Source of the DNA: a bacterium
Lineage (GTDB): Bacteria > UBA4055
Reading direction: 5' to 3'
Assembly (NCBI GenBank): GCA_029559475.1
Contig: JAKQBN010000011.1
Span: 1-24,251, forward strand
DNA length: 24,251 nt
Part shown: piece after piece, positions 4,743 through 24,251 of the stretch
Layout of the letters: each line of letters opens with the position of its first letter
Numbering within the stretch: the first letter of the stretch is position 1
The notes under the pieces: model-generated
The model's input: only the letters and a program-made list of their open reading frames with translations
What the model was told of the DNA's origin: nothing
Databases searched by the model: none
Made by a program: the position numbers and the translations under genes

Positions 4743-5813
4743 ATGGCGGACATTGTTGAATTACTCGAAATAACCATTCAGGAAGGCGCATCGGATCTTC
4801 ACATCTGCGCGGGAAGCCCTCCCGTCATCAGGATAGATGGCGATCTGGTAAGACTTAACAGACCTGTTCTTATGCCTAAGGAAACGAAAGAGATCGCTTA
4901 CAGCGTACTCAACGAATATCAGAAGAACGAATTTGAGAAAAAGCTGCAGGTCGACCTTTCAACAGGTATCAGGAACTTGGGCAGGTTCAGGGTGAACGTT
5001 TACAGCCAGAGAGAGGCAATTTCGATAGCTTTCAGAGCGATCCCGAACGACATTAGATCGTTCGATGAAGCAGGGATCCCGTCGATAGTTTCAACCCTGT
5101 GCGATAAACCGAATGGTATAGTCCTTGTTACAGGACCGACAGGATCGGGTAAATCAACAACGCTGGCGACAATGATAGACAAGATCAACAGCGAATATCC
5201 CGTGCATATTCTGACCATTGAAGATCCAATTGAGTTTTTGCATAAATCAAAAAAAGCGATTATAAACCAGAGAGAGCTGGGCACAGACTTCAGGCAGTTC
5301 CCCGATGCTTTAAGAGCCGCTCTCCGTCAGGACCCCGATGTTATTCTGGTCGGCGAGATGAGGGACAGAGAGACAATGGAGCTTGCGTTAAGAGCCGCAG
5401 AAACCGGGCACCTTGTTATGACAACTCTTCACACTAACTCCTGTTCGCAGACCATAGGCAGGATCATAGATACTTTCCCTGAAAACATGCAGGAGCAGAT
5501 CAGAACTCAGCTCGGTATGATGCTTCAGGGAGTCGTAACCCAGAAACTACTCCCGAAAGTGGGAGGAGGCAGGGTACTCGGCTGCGAGATCATGATCGGA
5601 ACACCGGCTATCAATTCACTTATCAGGGAAAACAAAGTCCATCAGCTTGACAGTATTATTCAGGTGAGCCAGAAATACGGTATGATGACGTTCAACCAGC
5701 ACCTCGTACAGCTGGTAAAAGAAGGCCTGATCACAAAAGAAACTGCAATACACGTATGTAATACTGAGATCAGCGTCCTTGTCGACCTGATGAGCAGGGA
5801 AGGTATCAGATAG
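4743..5813 (+). CDS. pilT: Type IV pilus retraction ATPase PilT
   Basis: Hexameric cytoplasmic ATPase that depolymerises type IV pili at the inner-membrane platform, driving twitching. The protein has 356 residues, in the usual PilT range. An N-terminal PAS-like half carries the PilT-typical 'EGASDLH' (14-20). The ATPase half has Walker A GPTGSGKST (131-139), the Asp box IEDPIEF (159-165), Walker B DPDVILVGEMRD (197-208, catalytic Glu 205) and the His box GHLVMTTLHTNS (222-233). AINSLIRE (289-296) corresponds to the AIRNLIRE retraction motif that separates PilT from PilB. It lacks the zinc tetracysteine of PilB, as expected. The start ATG at 4743 has GGAG 7 bases upstream (4732-4735). It is the first gene of the pil-ior unit, 27 bp before the PilB-type gene. 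No pilin or PilM-Q genes are in the window. Confidence 0.95.
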   Translation: MADIVELLEITIQEGASDLHICAGSPPVIRIDGDLVRLNRPVLMPKETKEIAYSVLNEYQKNEFEKKLQVDLSTGIRNLGRFRVNVYSQREAISIAFRAIPNDIRSFDEAGIPSIVSTLCDKPNGIVLVTGPTGSGKSTTLATMIDKINSEYPVHILTIEDPIEFLHKSKKAIINQRELGTDFRQFPDALRAALRQDPDVILVGEMRDRETMELALRAAETGHLVMTTLHTNSCSQTIGRIIDTFPENMQEQIRTQLGMMLQGVVTQKLLPKVGGGRVLGCEIMIGTPAINSLIRENKVHQLDSIIQVSQKYGMMTFNQHLVQLVKEGLITKETAIHVCNTEISVLVDLMSREGIR

Positions 5814-5840: not shown

Positions 5841-7991
5841 ATGGCTGAAGACATTTTTAAATCGAGTATAATAATTATTGACGACGATGATGAACTGAGA
5901 GAGACATATTACGATCTTCTGATCGCCGAGGGATTTAAAAATACATTTCAGGCGGAAAATGGCGTTGTAGCTCTGCAGATGGCGAAGACGCAGAAGTTCG
6001 ATCTAATAATCTCGGATCTTAACATGCCCGAAATGGACGGTATCGAGACCATCAAGAAGATAAAAGAGCTTCACCCGAATGTAATGTCTATGATCCTGAC
6101 AGGTTTCGGCAACATGGATGTGGCTATAAAAGCATTTTCTGAAAGTCATATTAACGATTTCCTCTCAAAACCCGTTGAGAACGATGAACTTCTTGAAAAA
6201 ATAAAAAGCCATCTTTCGAAAATGGGTTCTGCCCAGACAGAAACGAATATGTCGGACATGGTAAGAAAAGAATTCGGAAGCCAGAGGAATTATTTCGGAC
6301 AGTACCTGATTGACAACGGCTACATTACTGAGGAAGACCTTCTTGAGGCCCTTCAGAAACAAAAAGAGACCGGCAAAATGCTGGGAGACACGCTTGTCGA
6401 AATGAAACTGATGACGGCTGACGAGCTTGTTAACGCGCTTTCTGAACAGAAAGGCTATTCTATAGCTGACGATAAAACTTTAGCCCAGATCCCTGAAGAC
6501 GCGCTGATGAAAGTGCCTGTAGATTTTGCAAGACAGCACAATCTTGTCCCGATAGGTATTGAGGATAACAGCCTTAAAGTAGCCATGGTCAATCCTGACG
6601 ATCTTGCGGTTACCGACAATTTGAAGATGATCGCTCAAATGTCGATCATTCCGTTCTATTCGACGAAGGAAAAGATAGATAAAGCTATCGACCTTTTCTA
6701 TAAAAAATTGGAATCAACTGCCAGTGCTAATTCCGCACTAAGCGAGATATTCGCAGAAGACGATGTTAAGGTTGAAGAGATTAATGTAAAAGACATTAAA
6801 GATGAGGACAATCCCGATTCAGCACCGATAATCAATCTTGTAAACAGTATTCTGGCAAAAGCGGATCTCGACGGCACTTCTGATATTCATATTGAGCCTC
6901 AGGAAAAATATGTTCAGATAAGGTTCAGGAAGGACGGAGATCTGTATATACCAACCGGATACGAAAGGCTTCCAAAAAAACTTCAGTCATCTCTTGCAGC
7001 AAGGATCAAGGTATTGACCAAGACAATGAAGCTGGATATAAAATTAAGGCCGCAGGATGGAAAGATCCGTATGAAATTAAGAGGGAGAGAGATTGACTTT
7101 AGGGTCGGTACATTACCTACTATCCACGGCGAGAAGATCGTGCTCCGTCTCTTGAAAACAGAACAGCTTTTCCCGATCGAGGGAATATTCAGCGGTAACC
7201 AGACTTATATAGATACTTTCGTAAAGAATATTCAGAGACCGGACGGAATGGTTCTGGTTACGGGACCTACAGGATCAGGAAAAACAAATACACTGGCATC
7301 GGCTCTCAATTACATTAAGAACGTAACGATAAATATTGTATCTGTTGAAGACCCGGTCGAGATCCAGAACGAGGGTATCATTCAGGTTCAGATAAACATT
7401 CAACAGGAACTTACATTCCAGACAGCTTTAAGGCAGATCCTCCGTCAGGACCCTGATGTTGTGCTCATAGGAGAGATGAGGGACTACGAAACTGCGCACA
7501 TAGGATGTGAGGCGGCTCTTACGGGACACCTTGTTTTCAGCACTCTTCACACGAACGATGCGCCTTCAACCGTTACACGTTTTATCGAGATGGGGATCAA
7601 GGATTATCTTGTGGGAACTGTAATAAGACTTATCATTGCACAAAGGCTTGCAAGGTCAATATGTAAAATGTGTAAGAAAGAATATGAATACGATAAAAAA
7701 GCGCTTATCGGACTGGGATTGACTGAAGAGGACATCGAAGGGCATAAGTTCTATAAGGGCGAAGGCTGTCCGAACTGCAAAGGCACCGGAAGAGCAGGAA
7801 GGGTCGCTGTAATTGAAATGATGGAGATGACAAAAAAGATAAGCTCTGCTGTAATGAGAGGAGCAACAGCGCTCGAGATAGGGGACATTGCTAAGGCTGA
7901 AGGCGTTTACTGGACACTAAAAGAAGATGCCCTCAGGCATTTCAAGAATGGCAAGATCGATCTTGAAGAAGCTATGTATTTCGCACTGTAA
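5841..7991 (+). CDS. pilB: PilB-type pilus extension ATPase with an N-terminal response-regulator receiver domain
   Basis: A 716-residue assembly ATPase, about 130 longer than usual PilB because of an added N-terminal domain. Order: REC receiver domain (about 8-125) with acidic pocket D14-D17, phospho-acceptor D59 in 'ISDLNMPEMDG', T87 and K110, all present. Then a MshEN/T2SSE-N domain (about 150-290) with two 24-residue motifs (151-174 and 180-203), each with GxxL early and a final Gln, separated by 5 residues, the layout of c-di-GMP-binding MshEN domains. Then the ATPase: Walker A GPTGSGKTNT (475-484), Asp box VEDPVEI (502-508), Walker B DPDVVLIGEMRD (537-548), His box GHLVFSTLHTND (562-573), and zinc tetracysteine C608/C611/C643/C646. 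The role of family members is ATP-driven pilin polymerisation through PilC. Control by phosphorylation and c-di-GMP is inferred from the domains. RBS AAAAAGG precedes the ATG; pilC follows after 36 bp. Confidence 0.93.
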   Translation: MAEDIFKSSIIIIDDDDELRETYYDLLIAEGFKNTFQAENGVVALQMAKTQKFDLIISDLNMPEMDGIETIKKIKELHPNVMSMILTGFGNMDVAIKAFSESHINDFLSKPVENDELLEKIKSHLSKMGSAQTETNMSDMVRKEFGSQRNYFGQYLIDNGYITEEDLLEALQKQKETGKMLGDTLVEMKLMTADELVNALSEQKGYSIADDKTLAQIPEDALMKVPVDFARQHNLVPIGIEDNSLKVAMVNPDDLAVTDNLKMIAQMSIIPFYSTKEKIDKAIDLFYKKLESTASANSALSEIFAEDDVKVEEINVKDIKDEDNPDSAPIINLVNSILAKADLDGTSDIHIEPQEKYVQIRFRKDGDLYIPTGYERLPKKLQSSLAARIKVLTKTMKLDIKLRPQDGKIRMKLRGREIDFRVGTLPTIHGEKIVLRLLKTEQLFPIEGIFSGNQTYIDTFVKNIQRPDGMVLVTGPTGSGKTNTLASALNYIKNVTINIVSVEDPVEIQNEGIIQVQINIQQELTFQTALRQILRQDPDVVLIGEMRDYETAHIGCEAALTGHLVFSTLHTNDAPSTVTRFIEMGIKDYLVGTVIRLIIAQRLARSICKMCKKEYEYDKKALIGLGLTEEDIEGHKFYKGEGCPNCKGTGRAGRVAVIEMMEMTKKISSAVMRGATALEIGDIAKAEGVYWTLKEDALRHFKNGKIDLEEAMYFAL

Positions 7992-8027: not shown

Positions 8028-9260
8028 ATGCCAAAATTCAGATACGTTGCAAAGGATTTTTCGGGTAAGACCGTAACCGGGGAGATAATGGCCGGAGGTC
8101 AGACAGATGTGGTCAACAAGCTTCAGACCCAGAACATGATCCCGATGAGCGTGACAGAGGTCAGCATGCAGCAGAAGGGCGGAGGATTTCAGGCCATCAA
8201 TGATAAGATAACAATGCTGACTACAAAAGTTACTCTGGCCGATAAAGTGTTCTTTACTAACCAGATGGTGACTTTTCTTAATGCCGGTGTCACACTGACC
8301 AAGAGTATCAAGAATATCGCTGATTCACAAAAGAACGTTGTAGTAAAAGCCGTATTAAATCAGCTATACGACGACATTAATGCCGGTTCAGATTTCTCGG
8401 CGGCTCTTGCAAAACATCCAAAAATATTCGATCAGATGTACATCAACATCGTAAAAGCCGGTGAAACTTCAGGTAACCTCGACAAAGCTCTTAAATCGCT
8501 TGCAGGCTATATGGAGAAAAGCCAGCAGATGCAGTCGGCTATCAAATCTGCGATGATGTACCCGAAATTCGTTGTTATCTTTACAGTTGTTATAGTTTTT
8601 GTTATCCTGTGGAAGATCATTCCTGTATTCCAGAGCCTTTTCTCATCATTCGGAGGAGAATTACCGGGACCTACGCAATTGCTGGTCGATGCTTCAGACG
8701 TAATTCAGAATCATTTCTTTCTAATCCTTTTAACGATCGGCGGTATCTGGTACGGTATAAAATATGCTTTTAAATTCAAGCAGGTTCGCGATAATTGGGA
8801 TAAGTTCGTTATAAGCGCTCCATTATTCGGCGAGATGGTAAGGCAGATCATAGCTGCAAGGGTAGCAAGCGTTCTCGCGCTTCTTCTCAGTTCAGGTACA
8901 TCAATGCTCGAATCTATAGAGATAGCCTCAAAGGTAGCAAATAACAGTGTTTATGAGGATGCTTTAAAAAAATCAGCTACGGACGTAAGTAATGGTATTG
9001 AACTGTCGGTCGCATTTAAAAAACAGAACAGGTTCGATGATGTCTTTATACAGCTTCTCGAAACAGGCGAGGAAACAGGTAAGATCGACGACCTGATGAA
9101 GAAGATAGCTGAGTATTATGACGGTGAGGTCGCCGTAAAAGTTAAAGGATTTTCATCATTAATGGAGCCTTTACTTATTGTCTTCATGGGTGTCGTGGTC
9201 GGAGGTATCGTGGTAGCTATATATCTGCCGATATTTACTATGGGTGAAGTTATTCAGTAA
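8028..9260 (+). CDS. pilC: Type IV pilus inner-membrane platform protein PilC
   Basis: A 410-residue integral membrane protein of the T2SSF/GspF family, the platform on which PilB and PilT act. Two homologous cytoplasmic domains carry the paired family signature: IVKAGETSGNLD (141-152) in the first and LLETGEETGKIDDLM (343-357) in the second. Three hydrophobic segments at about 181-200, 229-249 and 381-401 match the standard topology. The N-terminal 'FRYVAKDFSGKTVTGEI' (4-20) is typical of PilC/GspF. It follows pilB by 36 bp and precedes the DUF5683-like gene by 9 bp, so it is inside the operon. Nothing is unusual in length or motifs. Confidence 0.95.
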   Translation: MPKFRYVAKDFSGKTVTGEIMAGGQTDVVNKLQTQNMIPMSVTEVSMQQKGGGFQAINDKITMLTTKVTLADKVFFTNQMVTFLNAGVTLTKSIKNIADSQKNVVVKAVLNQLYDDINAGSDFSAALAKHPKIFDQMYINIVKAGETSGNLDKALKSLAGYMEKSQQMQSAIKSAMMYPKFVVIFTVVIVFVILWKIIPVFQSLFSSFGGELPGPTQLLVDASDVIQNHFFLILLTIGGIWYGIKYAFKFKQVRDNWDKFVISAPLFGEMVRQIIAARVASVLALLLSSGTSMLESIEIASKVANNSVYEDALKKSATDVSNGIELSVAFKKQNRFDDVFIQLLETGEETGKIDDLMKKIAEYYDGEVAVKVKGFSSLMEPLLIVFMGVVVGGIVVAIYLPIFTMGEVIQ

Positions 9261-9770: not shown

Positions 9771-12281
9771 ATGTCCGCTTTTGAAAATATCATAAACTCA
9801 GAGAAAGGAACGAAGCTGATTGCTCAGGGAAATGAGGCCTTTGCGCTGGGAGTAATTCATGCAGGTTATCACGCCGCAGACGGATATCCCGGTACGCCGA
9901 GTACGGAAGTTATCGATAAATATCTGAGCAAAGTGCAGGATAAGATCAATGTCGGCTGGTCCGTTAACGAAGCGGTCGCAGTAGCGGTCGGTATCGGACA
10001 TTCTATCGCGGGATTCGATACAGTGGTAACGATGAAAACACCCGGAGCTTTTCAGGCCGGCGATCCAATCACGACATCGGCTTTCTATACCGCGGAAGCT
10101 GGTGCATTCGTGCTTTATGTAGCTACAGATTATGTTCCTTCAAGCACTCAGCATGTTATTGATCTGAAGTACTTCTTCGCTTCAGCAAGAATTCCCGTGC
10201 TTGAACCGAGAGATCATCAGGAAATGTACGATATTGCTTTTACTGCTGCTGATATCAGCAGGAATTTCAGGACACCGGTGGTGATCTTAGCTTCAGGAAT
10301 TCTTGCTCACTCCGAGGGGCTTATTCAGACAAAGGAACCGAGGAAAATAGTTCCGAAGGAACTGAAATCCGATATGAAGTCATGGATCATCATGCCGGGT
10401 GTTGCGAGGAGAAATTACGATGAAGCTACTCAGAAAAGGATACCGGCGGTTCAGGAGTATTTTGAAAGATCGCAGCTCGTCAGCGAGACCATTTCAGCTG
10501 AGAGCGAGATCGGGATCATAGTCAGCGGAGAAACGACTATAATTCTTAAAGAAGTACTTGGACAGCTGGGAATAAAACCTTCCTTTATGACGCTGTCAAC
10601 GCTATACCCGGTGCCTGAAAAGAGTATTCTGGATTTCGCGAAGAAGATCAAAGGAAAAATTTTTATTTATGAGGACGGCGACAGGTTTCTGGAAGAAAAA
10701 GTCCGGCTTTTAGGCATAAATGTAATTGGAAAAGAGAAAAATTCAGTTATTACGAACTGGACGCCTGAACTTCTTATGAGCGATCTGTGCAGAAAGCTCG
10801 GAATGAAATGCGATTTCACGCCAAAAAAAATCGAAGCTGAACCTTTAAAAAGGCCGCCTTCGATCTGTCCGGGATGTCCGTATAAAGCATTCGGACTTAC
10901 AGTCAACAAATTCAAACAATCAGGAAAAATATACGCGTCTTTCGGGGATATAGGCTGCTCAACTCTTTTATATTTCATGAACGCGCTCGACACCGTGCTC
11001 TGCATGGGAGCAGGCGATTCAGTCAGACAGGGATTTGTCCTTTCAAGACCGGAATATGCGCATAAAACTATAAGCATAATCGGAGATTCATGCGAATGTC
11101 ATTCGGGACTAGACGCAACAAGGAACGCGGTATTCAGGAACACTCCGGGCGTGAAGGTCGTTCTCGACAACAGGATCACCGCGATGACGGGCGGGCAGCC
11201 TGCGCCGAGTTCGGAATTTAATCTGGCCGGAGTTCAGAACAGATTCAATCTTGTCAAGGCTCTTGAGGCTGAGCAGGCGAAAGTTGTAGTAGCGAGATCA
11301 TACGACATTAAGCAGGTCGAGAAAGTATTAGCTCAGGCTCTTGCCGATGCAGAAAACGGCGAATTTACCACGCTGGTTCTTGAAGGGCCGTGCATACATC
11401 AGGTGGAGAACAAGGCTAAAGTCAGAAAAGTTCAATTCAACAGAGAAAAATGCAGACGCTGCGGTAAGTGCAATATGTGTCAGGGGATCGAGTTCGACGA
11501 GGATAAATGGCCTCATTTTACTCAGCTCTGCACTAACTGCGCAGGTCATGATCAGGTTTGTAAACAAATCTGCCCTTTCGGTGCTATTGAATTCATCACC
11601 GAAGAAACCAAGATACAGGCACCATCTCTGCCGGAAGTCGGAAAATACGAAGAAATTAAGATCGACCCTAAATCGCTTCCATCGTCGCTCAGAGTGGCTG
11701 TAAGAGGCATAGGCGGACAGGGAAACCTTTTCTTCGGAAAAGTGCTTGCAGAAATATCACTCAATACTCCTTACGGAGATACTCATATAGTTAAGGGCGA
11801 TACTCACGGAATGGCACAGCTCGGCGGTCCGGTTATTTCAACATTCGCCTGCGGTGCAGTTCATTCACCGACTCTACTTCCGGGCACAGTTGATGTCATA
11901 GTGGTCATGGAAAGATCGGAAATATTAAGAGAAGGGTTCCTCGATCTGTTAAAAGACGGCGGAACAATAATTCTGAACAGCTACAAAGCGCTGCCTCCGA
12001 GAACAAGCATTCACGATTATCCGAAAGATGAAGTTATAGATAAAATGCTCGACGGATATAAAGTTATAAGGATAGATGCGGAAAAGATAGCTAAGAACTT
12101 CGGGGACGAACAGGGAAAGACGGCAAATGTCATCGTTCTCGGCCTTTTATCAACTATCGAACCGTTCAATAAAATACCTGAAGGCATCTGGATAGGCGCA
12201 TTAAAGAAATTATCACCGAATGAAAACATATTTAAAGCTAACATTACAGCATTCAACGGAGGAAGGAACCATGATAAATAA
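9771..12281 (+). CDS. iorAB: Single-chain indolepyruvate:ferredoxin oxidoreductase (IorA-IorB fusion)
   Basis: Oxidatively decarboxylates aryl-2-oxoacids (indolepyruvate, phenylpyruvate, 4-hydroxyphenylpyruvate) to aryl-acetyl-CoA, reducing ferredoxin; cytoplasmic and typical of anaerobes. The 836 residues comprise: pyrimidine-binding domain (about 15-180, 'DGYPGTPSTEV'), a transketolase-C-like domain (245-345), the linker 'PPSICPGCPYKAF' (362-374), the TPP domain with GDS (438-440) and DNRITAMTGGQPAP (466-479), a Cys-rich Fe-S segment (561-601), and an IorB/gamma-type domain (640-836) opening with RGIGGQGNLFFGKV and containing THGMAQLGG. IorA (about 600 aa) and IorB (about 200 aa) are usually separate. 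The Fe-S cysteines are C561-x2-C564-x2-C567-x2-C570 and C587-x2-C590-x6-C597-x3-C601-P. This differs from the standard CxxCxxC...CP ferredoxin pattern. The end overlaps acd by 11 bp, so translation is probably coupled. Confidence 0.9.
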   Translation: MSAFENIINSEKGTKLIAQGNEAFALGVIHAGYHAADGYPGTPSTEVIDKYLSKVQDKINVGWSVNEAVAVAVGIGHSIAGFDTVVTMKTPGAFQAGDPITTSAFYTAEAGAFVLYVATDYVPSSTQHVIDLKYFFASARIPVLEPRDHQEMYDIAFTAADISRNFRTPVVILASGILAHSEGLIQTKEPRKIVPKELKSDMKSWIIMPGVARRNYDEATQKRIPAVQEYFERSQLVSETISAESEIGIIVSGETTIILKEVLGQLGIKPSFMTLSTLYPVPEKSILDFAKKIKGKIFIYEDGDRFLEEKVRLLGINVIGKEKNSVITNWTPELLMSDLCRKLGMKCDFTPKKIEAEPLKRPPSICPGCPYKAFGLTVNKFKQSGKIYASFGDIGCSTLLYFMNALDTVLCMGAGDSVRQGFVLSRPEYAHKTISIIGDSCECHSGLDATRNAVFRNTPGVKVVLDNRITAMTGGQPAPSSEFNLAGVQNRFNLVKALEAEQAKVVVARSYDIKQVEKVLAQALADAENGEFTTLVLEGPCIHQVENKAKVRKVQFNREKCRRCGKCNMCQGIEFDEDKWPHFTQLCTNCAGHDQVCKQICPFGAIEFITEETKIQAPSLPEVGKYEEIKIDPKSLPSSLRVAVRGIGGQGNLFFGKVLAEISLNTPYGDTHIVKGDTHGMAQLGGPVISTFACGAVHSPTLLPGTVDVIVVMERSEILREGFLDLLKDGGTIILNSYKALPPRTSIHDYPKDEVIDKMLDGYKVIRIDAEKIAKNFGDEQGKTANVIVLGLLSTIEPFNKIPEGIWIGALKKLSPNENIFKANITAFNGGRNHDK

Positions 12282-15933: not shown

Positions 15934-16128
15934 ATGAGAACAACGCTCGACCTGCCCGAAGATCTTCTCGTAGAGGCTATGAAAACCACACATATCAAAA
16001 CCAAAACAATGGTTATAATCACCGCTCTTGAAGACCTGATACGCAAAAATAAGATCGCCGGCCTTAAAAATTACAAGGGGAAGATCGATCTTGATATTGA
16101 TCTCGATACCTTAAGAGCAAGAACTTGA
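15934..16128 (+). CDS. vapB: VapB-type antitoxin
   Basis: A 64-residue protein with an N-terminal ribbon-helix-helix start 'MRTTLDLPEDLLVEAMK' typical of VapB antitoxins (VapB_antitoxin family), a central helix (27-40), and an acidic toxin-binding tail (about 48-64, 'KIDLDIDLDTLR'). VapB blocks the VapC active site and, with VapC, represses the operon. A strong AGGAGG lies 6 bases before the ATG. The stop TGA overlaps the TTG start of vapC (16125-16128). A promoter with an inverted repeat lies upstream. Family membership is clear from pattern and from the PIN toxin behind it. Confidence 0.88.
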   Translation: MRTTLDLPEDLLVEAMKTTHIKTKTMVIITALEDLIRKNKIAGLKNYKGKIDLDIDLDTLRART

Positions 16129-16505
16129 AGGTCCTTGTTGACACATCGGTCTGGATAGATTTTTTCAGAGACGGGAAAAATTCAGGCAAACTGGATCTTT
16201 TGATCGATGAAAATCTTATTGTAACAAATGACCTTATCTTAACAGAACTAATCCCGTATTTAAGACTCAAGAAACAAAACAAAGTTATCGGGCTTTTAAC
16301 CGAAATTTCTAAGAATGAAATGAATATAAACTGGAAGCAGATCACGGATTTCCAGACACTCTGCCTGCAAAAAGGTTACAACGGTATAGGTATTCCTGAT
16401 CTGGTGATCGCTCAGAACGCGCTTCAGAACGACTGCGGGATATTTACGCTGGACAACCACTTTGAAATGATAGCATCAATTATAAACATCAAGGTGTTTA
16501 AATGA
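16125..16505 (+). CDS. vapC: VapC-type PIN-domain ribonuclease toxin
   Basis: A 126-residue PIN-domain endonuclease. The start codon is TTG at 16125: translation from it gives 'MKVLVDTSVWIDFFR', the standard VapC beginning, and overlaps the vapB stop by 4 bp, so coupling is likely. The acidic active-site residues are visible: D6 in VDTSVW, E41 in LTELIP, D92 in GIPDLVIA and D110 in TLDNHF, which would bind the metal ion. Known VapC proteins cut tRNA or rRNA; the target here is unknown. No further gene follows before repeat copy B, which begins 18 bp after the stop. Confidence 0.9.
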   Translation: MKVLVDTSVWIDFFRDGKNSGKLDLLIDENLIVTNDLILTELIPYLRLKKQNKVIGLLTEISKNEMNINWKQITDFQTLCLQKGYNGIGIPDLVIAQNALQNDCGIFTLDNHFEMIASIINIKVFK

Positions 16506-22959: not shown

Positions 22960-24251
22960 GAACCGCCCAAAACCCGTTCATTGACATAGTCAAGACAGTC
23001 CAAAAAAATCACGCTATTTCAAAGAGCATAAGACATTGATATTATGGCTAAGCATTCGCAGGACAAACAAAATGAGTTCTGTTTTTCAGCAGTGCGAATA
23101 AAACTCTGAGCAACTTGTTTGCTGTGGCGATAACCGCTTTTTTGTATTTCATTCCTTCATCACTTTTTTTCTGGAAGTAAGTTTTGAAGTACGGATTGCA
23201 CCTTATCACGCACACAGCCATAATCCAGATGGTTCTTCTAAGATGGGCATTGCCGCGCTTGGTGATCTTCCCATTGCTGTGAACGGAAGTTCCGCTTTGT
23301 TTAACAGAAGGATCTGTTCCGGCAAAAGCTATAAGCTGCTTTGCAGATGCGAACTTATCTATATCGCCGACTTCAGCTATGAAAGCACTTGATGTGCCTT
23401 TTCCGATACCGTCAACTGAAGAGAGAATGGTGTGGTCATCGTTGTCGTTTTTGTTAATCTCTTCTTCGATGATACGATCGAACCTTTTAATCTCTTTTAT
23501 GATGTATAAAAGGCGATCCACTTTTGAAATGAGAGTTATTTCAGAGTATTCTGCATCTATACCGATAGAGTTTGCTGCCAGCTCGAAAAGCAGTTCTGTT
23601 CTTATCCTGGTTTTATTTGCAGTAGCCTTGTTAAGCTCTTTTTCAAGCTTTTTGAGGTTGTATTTTCTGACGCTTTTTGCGCTTGGAAATACTCTCAGAA
23701 TCTCGAGATTACTCTGCGTAAAGATGCCTGTTTCGGTTAACAGTTCCGGGAATGTATAATTCAGAATGGCTTTAATCTCAGTTTTCAGCTTAGCGTTATC
23801 ACGAGACAGAGATTCTCTTTCTCGCAAGACCACTCTGAGAGAATCAAGTTTTCTTTCGGTAATAATTTCGATCTCAGGCGATGACTTCTCGGCGTATTTA
23901 GCTATAGAATGAGCATCCTTCTTATCATTCTTTGTTTTCCTTAGTGTTTCTGATCTGATAAAATTGTTTATCAGTTGCGGATTGACCACAGAAACATGGA
24001 AATCCTGTAGCAAAAGAAATGAGAGCAAAGTATAATGATACGAGCCCGTTGATTCCATCACGATGAGAACTTTTTGTTTATCATATTCTGACAGCTGAAG
24101 ACTAAGCTCACTGAAATCATCAGAGTCCATTTTAAACTTAAAATGAACAGGCTTGATCTTACTGTGATCAAGAATGCATACATCGAAGCTCGACTTCGAG
24201 ATGTCTATGCCTACGAAAGTAGTGTACATGCACCCTCCTTAGGTTAGTTTT
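22960..24251 (-). mobile_element. IS110-family insertion sequence (partial)
   Basis: The transposase gene (23048-24229) is essentially complete, but the upstream end of the element lies beyond the window. The downstream boundary is not sharply visible; I place it near 22960, where the AT-rich leader of the chromosomal promoter gives way to a more mixed sequence. A small palindrome TTGACATAGTCAA (22981-22993) lies in this end. IS110 elements lack classical terminal inverted repeats and encode a guide (bridge) RNA in a non-coding end. Only 88 bp of likely downstream end and 22 bp upstream of the gene can be seen here. Confidence 0.7.
23048..24229 (-). CDS. IS110-family transposase
   Basis: A 393-residue RNA-guided recombinase of the IS110 family. 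The N-terminal RuvC-like DEDD domain shows D9 (GIDISK), E59 (MESTG), D102 and D105 (NDKKDAHSIAKY). A long helical middle (about 125-260) follows. The C-terminal Transposase_20 domain (about 265-390) has 'DGIGKGTSSAFIAEVGD' features (273-289), AFAGTDPS (301-308) and QSGTS (311-315) with the catalytic Ser, probably S312. All key residues are present and the frame is open throughout, so the enzyme may be active. AAGGAGG (24233-24239) lies 3 bases before the ATG. The transposase cuts and joins DNA through the Ser and acidic residues, with target choice by a bridge RNA in known members. Confidence 0.93.
   Translation of the reverse strand: MYTTFVGIDISKSSFDVCILDHSKIKPVHFKFKMDSDDFSELSLQLSEYDKQKVLIVMESTGSYHYTLLSFLLLQDFHVSVVNPQLINNFIRSETLRKTKNDKKDAHSIAKYAEKSSPEIEIITERKLDSLRVVLRERESLSRDNAKLKTEIKAILNYTFPELLTETGIFTQSNLEILRVFPSAKSVRKYNLKKLEKELNKATANKTRIRTELLFELAANSIGIDAEYSEITLISKVDRLLYIIKEIKRFDRIIEEEINKNDNDDHTILSSVDGIGKGTSSAFIAEVGDIDKFASAKQLIAFAGTDPSVKQSGTSVHSNGKITKRGNAHLRRTIWIMAVCVIRCNPYFKTYFQKKSDEGMKYKKAVIATANKLLRVLFALLKNRTHFVCPANA

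Follow-up and report, generated by a model that had tools for sequence, protein, structure and literature searches.

The window, a stretch of 24,251 nt, contains a pil operon in the order pilT-pilB-pilC followed by a DUF5683 gene, an order that recurs in a distant member of the same family (G004). The pilB-type gene, encoded together with pilT and pilC, specifies a motor protein of 716 amino acids in which a receiver domain (REC) and an MshEN domain precede the ATPase. The features of the locus, in window coordinates, are as follows:

4743..5813, plus strand: pilT, retraction ATPase (pilT_fam 482 bits, cut-off 319)
5841..7991, plus strand: REC-MshEN-PilB extension ATPase, 716 aa (open reading frame, Pfam and NCBIfam domains, AlphaFold2)
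5865..6215, plus strand: receiver domain, aa 9-125 (PF00072 94.6 bits, invariant residues, model)
6216..6290, plus strand: REC-MshEN linker, aa 126-150 (pLDDT <50 at 131-147, alignment)
6291..6362, plus strand: MshEN motif I, aa 151-174, with Y1 F2 G3 G10 L17 L21 Q24 (sequence, NF053729)
6363..6377, plus strand: five-residue spacer KETGK, aa 175-179 (sequence)
6378..6449, plus strand: MshEN motif II, aa 180-203, with M1 L2 G3 K10 L17 L21 Q24 (sequence, NF053729)
6450..6713, plus strand: C-terminal subdomain of MshEN, aa 204-291, with NPDD at 251-254 (PF05157 at 215-291, fold)
6714..6812, plus strand: disordered linker to the motor, aa 292-324 (pLDDT <50 at 295-324)
6813..7976, plus strand: T2SSE/PilB ATPase, aa 325-712, with Walker A GPTGSGK at aa 475-481 (PF00437 367.9 bits)
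8028..9260, plus strand: pilC/GspF platform protein (PF00482; NCBIfam GspF/PilC matches)

The first-pass annotation described PilT as free of added domains, and Pfam indeed finds only the ATPase in it. No histidine kinase gene lies beside the pil operon within the window. Elsewhere in the window are a gene for an 836-aa protein with parts resembling the alpha and beta parts of indolepyruvate oxidoreductase (9771-12281; both curated matches below cut-off), a short VapC-like PIN protein (16125-16505; match below cut-off) and, at the window end, an IS110-family RNA-guided transposase (23048-24229, minus strand; 255 bits, cut-off 140).

The order REC, MshEN, ATPase on one motor, originally read from the open reading frame, was confirmed by Pfam and NCBIfam searches. 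In Pfam, Response_reg covers residues 10-122 (cut-off 30.2 bits), MshEN residues 215-291 (63.9 bits, cut-off 23.1) and T2SSE residues 325-712 (above cut-off). The Pfam MshEN model mainly represents the C-terminal half of the domain; the ligand-binding half was detected via the NCBIfam model NF053729. Among curated families, the ATPase scores best with type_IV_pilB, at 521.9 bits, yet under the PilB equivalog cut-off of 675.65, followed by GspE (458.0) and pilT_fam (166.0), and the top Foldseek matches of the predicted structure are Geobacter PilB (5tsh and 5zfr). The protein is an extension ATPase of type IV pili and resembles PilB more than it does GspE or PilT. Its AlphaFold2 model has a mean pLDDT of 88.8, with most blocks above 90; because the pTM is only 0.56, the position of REC relative to the motor is not fixed by the model. 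The linker between REC and MshEN is modelled with low confidence and includes a stretch, DMVR(K/G)EFG, that is conserved in the family alignment.

The receiver domain contains the residues expected of a phosphorylatable REC: the acidic pair D14/D15, the phospho-acceptor D59 (nt 6015-6017), T87, F107 and K110. All six are invariant across the nine complete proteins of the family, and no relative that extends over D14/D15, D59, T87 and K110 lacks them; the original assignment of the phosphorylation residues was correct. In the AlphaFold model, the domain adopts a five-stranded receiver fold with the acidic pair at the end of strand 1, D59 at the C-terminal end of strand 3, T87 at that of strand 4 and K110 at that of strand 5, which is the CheY arrangement. 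Since the model shows this fold with D59, T87 and K110 at strand ends, the objection that D59 might lie outside a REC pocket falls away. The solved structures nearest to the domain in sequence are the Spo0F, FleR and NtrC receivers. Thus, REC is complete, conserved and correctly folded in the model, and phosphorylation would be expected at D59.

The MshEN domain comprises two 24-residue motifs, YFGQYLIDNGYITEEDLLEALQKQ (motif I) and MLGDTLVEMKLMTADELVNALSEQ (motif II), whose coordinates and five-residue spacing had been given correctly by the first-pass annotation. NF053729, a curated 53-residue model of the c-di-GMP motif with a cut-off of 38 bits, aligns to residues 152-203 over its positions 2-53 and scores 67.0 bits when the whole protein is searched and 71.3 bits when only a fragment is. 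In the deep-branching Delongbacteria relatives it scores 60.3 and 54.2 bits, which gives a range of 54.2-71.3 bits for Delongbacteria. The strict consensus of these motifs is RLGxx(L/V/I)(L/V/I)xxG(L/V/I)(L/V/I)xxxxLxxxLxxQ (PMC5013675), from which motif I departs at positions 1 and 2 and motif II at positions 1 and 10. In particular, position 1 is Tyr151 in motif I and Met180 in motif II (Leu/Met in the deepest relatives). Two substitutions had gone unlisted: position 2 of motif I is Phe in place of Leu throughout the family, and motif II holds Lys at position 10 here, where two relatives have Glu and the others Gly. The position-3 Gly and the last Gln are present in both motifs; the last Gln of motif II is replaced by Asn or Ser in the two deepest relatives.

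The weight of these substitutions can be gauged from characterised proteins. In MshE, the R9A replacement abolishes 83% of binding (PMC4624772). GSPII-B of PilF, which has Lys and Leu at position 1, binds c-di-GMP at 6 nM, and reversion of either residue to Arg weakens binding; consequently, the consensus at this position has been widened to R/K/L, and a large hydrophobic residue there has been proposed to predict high affinity (PMC11731258). In the non-binding GSPII-A of PilF, the decisive changes are the loss of both last Gln residues, Ser at position 1 and the loss of the position-3 Gly (PMC12002112); moreover, its first helix is capped (PMC12002112). In the model of the 716-aa motor, the first turn of the MshEN helix borders on a stretch of low confidence. 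The literature search found no binding value for Tyr or Met at motif position 1. The first-pass annotation was right about Tyr and Met at this position, but its doubt about binding is weaker than thought, given the PilF data (PMC11731258) and a score above the NF053729 cut-off. The motif looks intact and conserved, and its sequence suggests that it may bind c-di-GMP.

The named relatives belong to Candidatus Delongbacteria, a group of little-known uncultured bacteria. REC is joined to the motor in 12 of 13 genomes of the family, nine of which carry the full-length fusion; in three others (G001, G003 and G009) the gene is a fragment cut by contig ends, although the REC-MshEN junction is still seen (from residue 81 in G003), and in the thirteenth (G010) the contig ends before REC. 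No unfused version was seen among the 13 genomes. An architecture this constant within the family is no artefact of assembly and goes far beyond chance. Among the nine complete proteins, mean pairwise identity is 80.6% for REC versus 76.9% for the ATPase (67.9% versus 66.7% across the deepest split) and 78.5% for the MshEN motif half (66.2% across that split), while the linkers reach only 50-55%. REC and the motif half are thus as conserved as the ATPase and the linkers far less so, which argues that both inputs are under constraint. Two Delongbacteria genomes also contain PilB-like ATPases of about 400 aa in a row (G012 contig C131:3857-8660 and G010 contig C121:65-3634), which match only the ATPase part of the query.

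How often this domain order occurs was surveyed, as the first-pass annotation had proposed, in 386 genomes, of which 373 belong to other families; six candidates per genome were scored, and the counts are thus lower bounds. Outside Delongbacteria the order occurs without a stop in at least two of the 373 genomes, G276 (locus L113, family f210) and G239 (L117, family f193), and two further genera of the latter's family carry it as well (L195 and L196). None of the other eight genomes of G276's class has a fusion that matches that of G276 along its length. In G276, locus L156 (contig C54) holds a REC-MshEN-ATPase fusion clustered with a histidine kinase, an MglA-like GTPase, other receivers and HD-type proteins resembling HD-GYP. 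In a maximum-likelihood tree of the motor domains, L113 adjoins L198, and the f193 fusions fall inside a supported clade of unfused motors, apart from the Delongbacteria clade. Because f193 nests, with strong support, among unfused motors and away from Delongbacteria, one shared ancestor for all fusions is not favoured; most likely, the fusion arose several times, including in at least two other lineages. The other N-terminal fusions fall below the NF053729 cut-off (35.7 bits in L113 and 32.2 bits in L117), and the motif glycines are lost in all three members of f193. Within the sample, only Delongbacteria were found to have REC and the c-di-GMP motif both intact on one motor.

Receivers accompany MshEN motors in other arrangements as well. 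Three tandem receiver genes lie directly upstream of the motor in L114, and in L121 the motor has a kinase gene and a receiver gene close by; both loci were rejected as fusions, as the stop inside the match sets the motor apart from receiver genes that immediately precede it. In L198, two receiver genes precede the motor, whose C-terminus holds the start of another receiver. L029-L031, which had appeared as full-length fusions in the tblastn table, were rejected: their motors begin with TPR repeats, and the receiver belongs to an adjacent gene (about 400 aa) just downstream. Two Acidobacteria carry REC behind the ATPase (L027:3962-6121 and L028:3245-6079), and in L027 the c-di-GMP motif is degenerate (18.7 bits with NF053729). 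As a control, no receiver was found in 16 other MshEN-motor loci within flanks of about 0.7-1.5 kb. These split and permuted forms, together with the control, indicate that receivers go with a minority of MshEN motors, in several arrangements. Long-frame candidates from other phyla (L185-L187, L189, L191 and L192) proved to carry extra MshEN copies, a cNMP-binding domain or unassigned extensions in place of REC, and L188 is a sigma-54 regulator. The motor in L191 (1033-3285) illustrates another added input module, a C-terminal cyclic-nucleotide-binding domain behind MshEN and the ATPase.

The signalling genes of the source genome were also inspected. Two GGDEF proteins carry the GGEEF sequence, and two GAF proteins carry an HD-GYP-type sequence, HHExxxGSGYP; judging from these apparently catalytic diguanylate cyclases, the cell probably makes c-di-GMP. 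The search for receptors covered PilZ, MshEN and the c-di-GMP-I riboswitch in a genome that is 92% complete: neither PilZ nor the riboswitch gave a match, and the single MshEN copy is that of the 716-aa motor. About 20 HATPase-type kinase matches are present. In contig C7 (L155:1252-5204), a TPR-GGDEF cyclase gene is directly followed by the gene of a 749-aa TPR histidine kinase, and this pair is conserved in six Delongbacteria genomes (including loci L177-L181); no receiver gene stands beside the kinase gene in the stretch read. It is conceivable, though rather unlikely, that this cyclase and kinase, which share a sensor type, feed MshEN and REC respectively as a closed two-input circuit; the motor would then be a two-signal gate as well as the cell's only recognised c-di-GMP receptor.

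Taken together, the 716-aa protein is best read as a doubly gated motor for type IV pilus extension in a Delongbacterium, in which two separate signals enter ahead of the ATPase, a reading to which we assign a probability of about 0.68. The proposal of the first-pass annotation that a histidine kinase and c-di-GMP could set pilus extension on the same polypeptide fits everything found. In the mechanism that we infer, which extends from phosphorylation and ligand binding to their effect on the motor, the direction of control and the identity of the kinase, c-di-GMP from the GGEEF cyclases would bind MshEN and favour extension in the manner of MshE and Thermus PilF. Asp59 would receive a phosphate from a histidine kinase, and phosphorylated REC, being flexibly tethered, would dock on the N-terminal ring of the hexamer or on the ATPase and alter turnover. 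The motor would thus have c-di-GMP as its accelerator and phosphorylation as a second input, probably a braking one, a proposal that draws on two precedents. In MshE, c-di-GMP slightly raises ATPase activity and is required for pilus export (PMC4624772). EmvR, a single-domain receiver of Xanthomonas oryzae, binds PilB but not PilT and cuts the ATPase activity of PilB by about 40% in a non-competitive manner (Vmax lowered, Km unchanged); the D15A, D59A and T87A substitutions abolish this effect (PMC11973254). By analogy with EmvR, we lean slightly towards a braking role for phosphorylated REC.

A different possibility is that only REC signals and that MshEN persists as a structural domain of the ring that no longer binds c-di-GMP. 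This is what the degenerate motifs of the other N-terminal REC fusions suggest for those proteins, and the non-consensus residues at motif positions 1, 2 and 10 would be in keeping with it here. In Delongbacteria, however, the motif scores 54-71 bits and its half of MshEN is as conserved as the ATPase, in a genome that appears to make c-di-GMP and shows no other PilZ or MshEN receptor; the loss of ligand binding is therefore unlikely.

The role of REC is likewise open to other readings. It might serve as a localisation or docking module whose phosphorylation sets the site of the motor (the pole, or polarity proteins) and not its speed. The FrzS, RomR and PilG/PilH receivers have been described as acting on pilus polarity or placement in other bacteria, and the linker of the 716-aa motor is long and, in the model, flexible; direct action of EmvR on PilB catalysis in vitro argues mildly against this reading, to which we give a low probability, below that of a silent MshEN. 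A phosphate sink, or a passenger without effect on the motor, is a very improbable role for REC: some receivers are sinks, and PilH has been proposed as one, but here all readable members of the family retain REC, which is conserved to the same degree as the catalytic domain and has been recruited to such motors repeatedly, with three separate tree placements in addition to the C-terminal and neighbouring-gene forms.

The routes by which signals reach the pilus motor are an open question, and in the preferred reading of a motor with two inputs, two signalling systems end on one polypeptide; cross-talk between them would therefore be measurable with a single purified protein. As the genome shows a single MshEN and neither PilZ nor a c-di-GMP-I riboswitch, c-di-GMP signalling in Delongbacteria may have its main outlet in this motor. 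Judging by the split forms in other lineages, receivers may control extension motors more commonly than the literature shows. The literature search found no paper on a receiver fused to PilB. An association of MshEN with REC was mentioned in 2016, in a paper whose main text gives no ATPase-specific detail (PMC5013675), and a review from 2024 on how PilB is controlled deals with many separate partner proteins and never uses the word "receiver" (PMC11656802).

Among known systems, MshE of Vibrio cholerae and PilF of Thermus thermophilus likewise have MshEN before a T2SSE ATPase that drives pilus extension, with tandem 24-residue motifs and a five-residue spacer (PMC5013675, PMC11731258). They differ from the 716-aa motor at motif position 1 (Arg/Arg in MshE and Lys/Leu in PilF GSPII-B versus Tyr/Met), and a receiver domain has been described in neither. 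EmvR, a receiver with D15, D59 and T87 that acts on PilB, is comparable to the REC of the motor; however, it is a stand-alone protein whose target is the unfused PilB of another phylum, whereas the REC of the motor shares its polypeptide with the ATPase, and the c-di-GMP motif lies between the two. The f193 and f210 fusions have the same domain order on one polypeptide as the Delongbacteria motor but are placed separately in the tree, and their c-di-GMP motif is below cut-off in L117 and L113. In the FimX-PilZ-PilB and PdeK-PdeR systems of Xanthomonas, two-component and c-di-GMP signals also meet at PilB (PMC11656802), although separate proteins do there what domains of the motor would do here.
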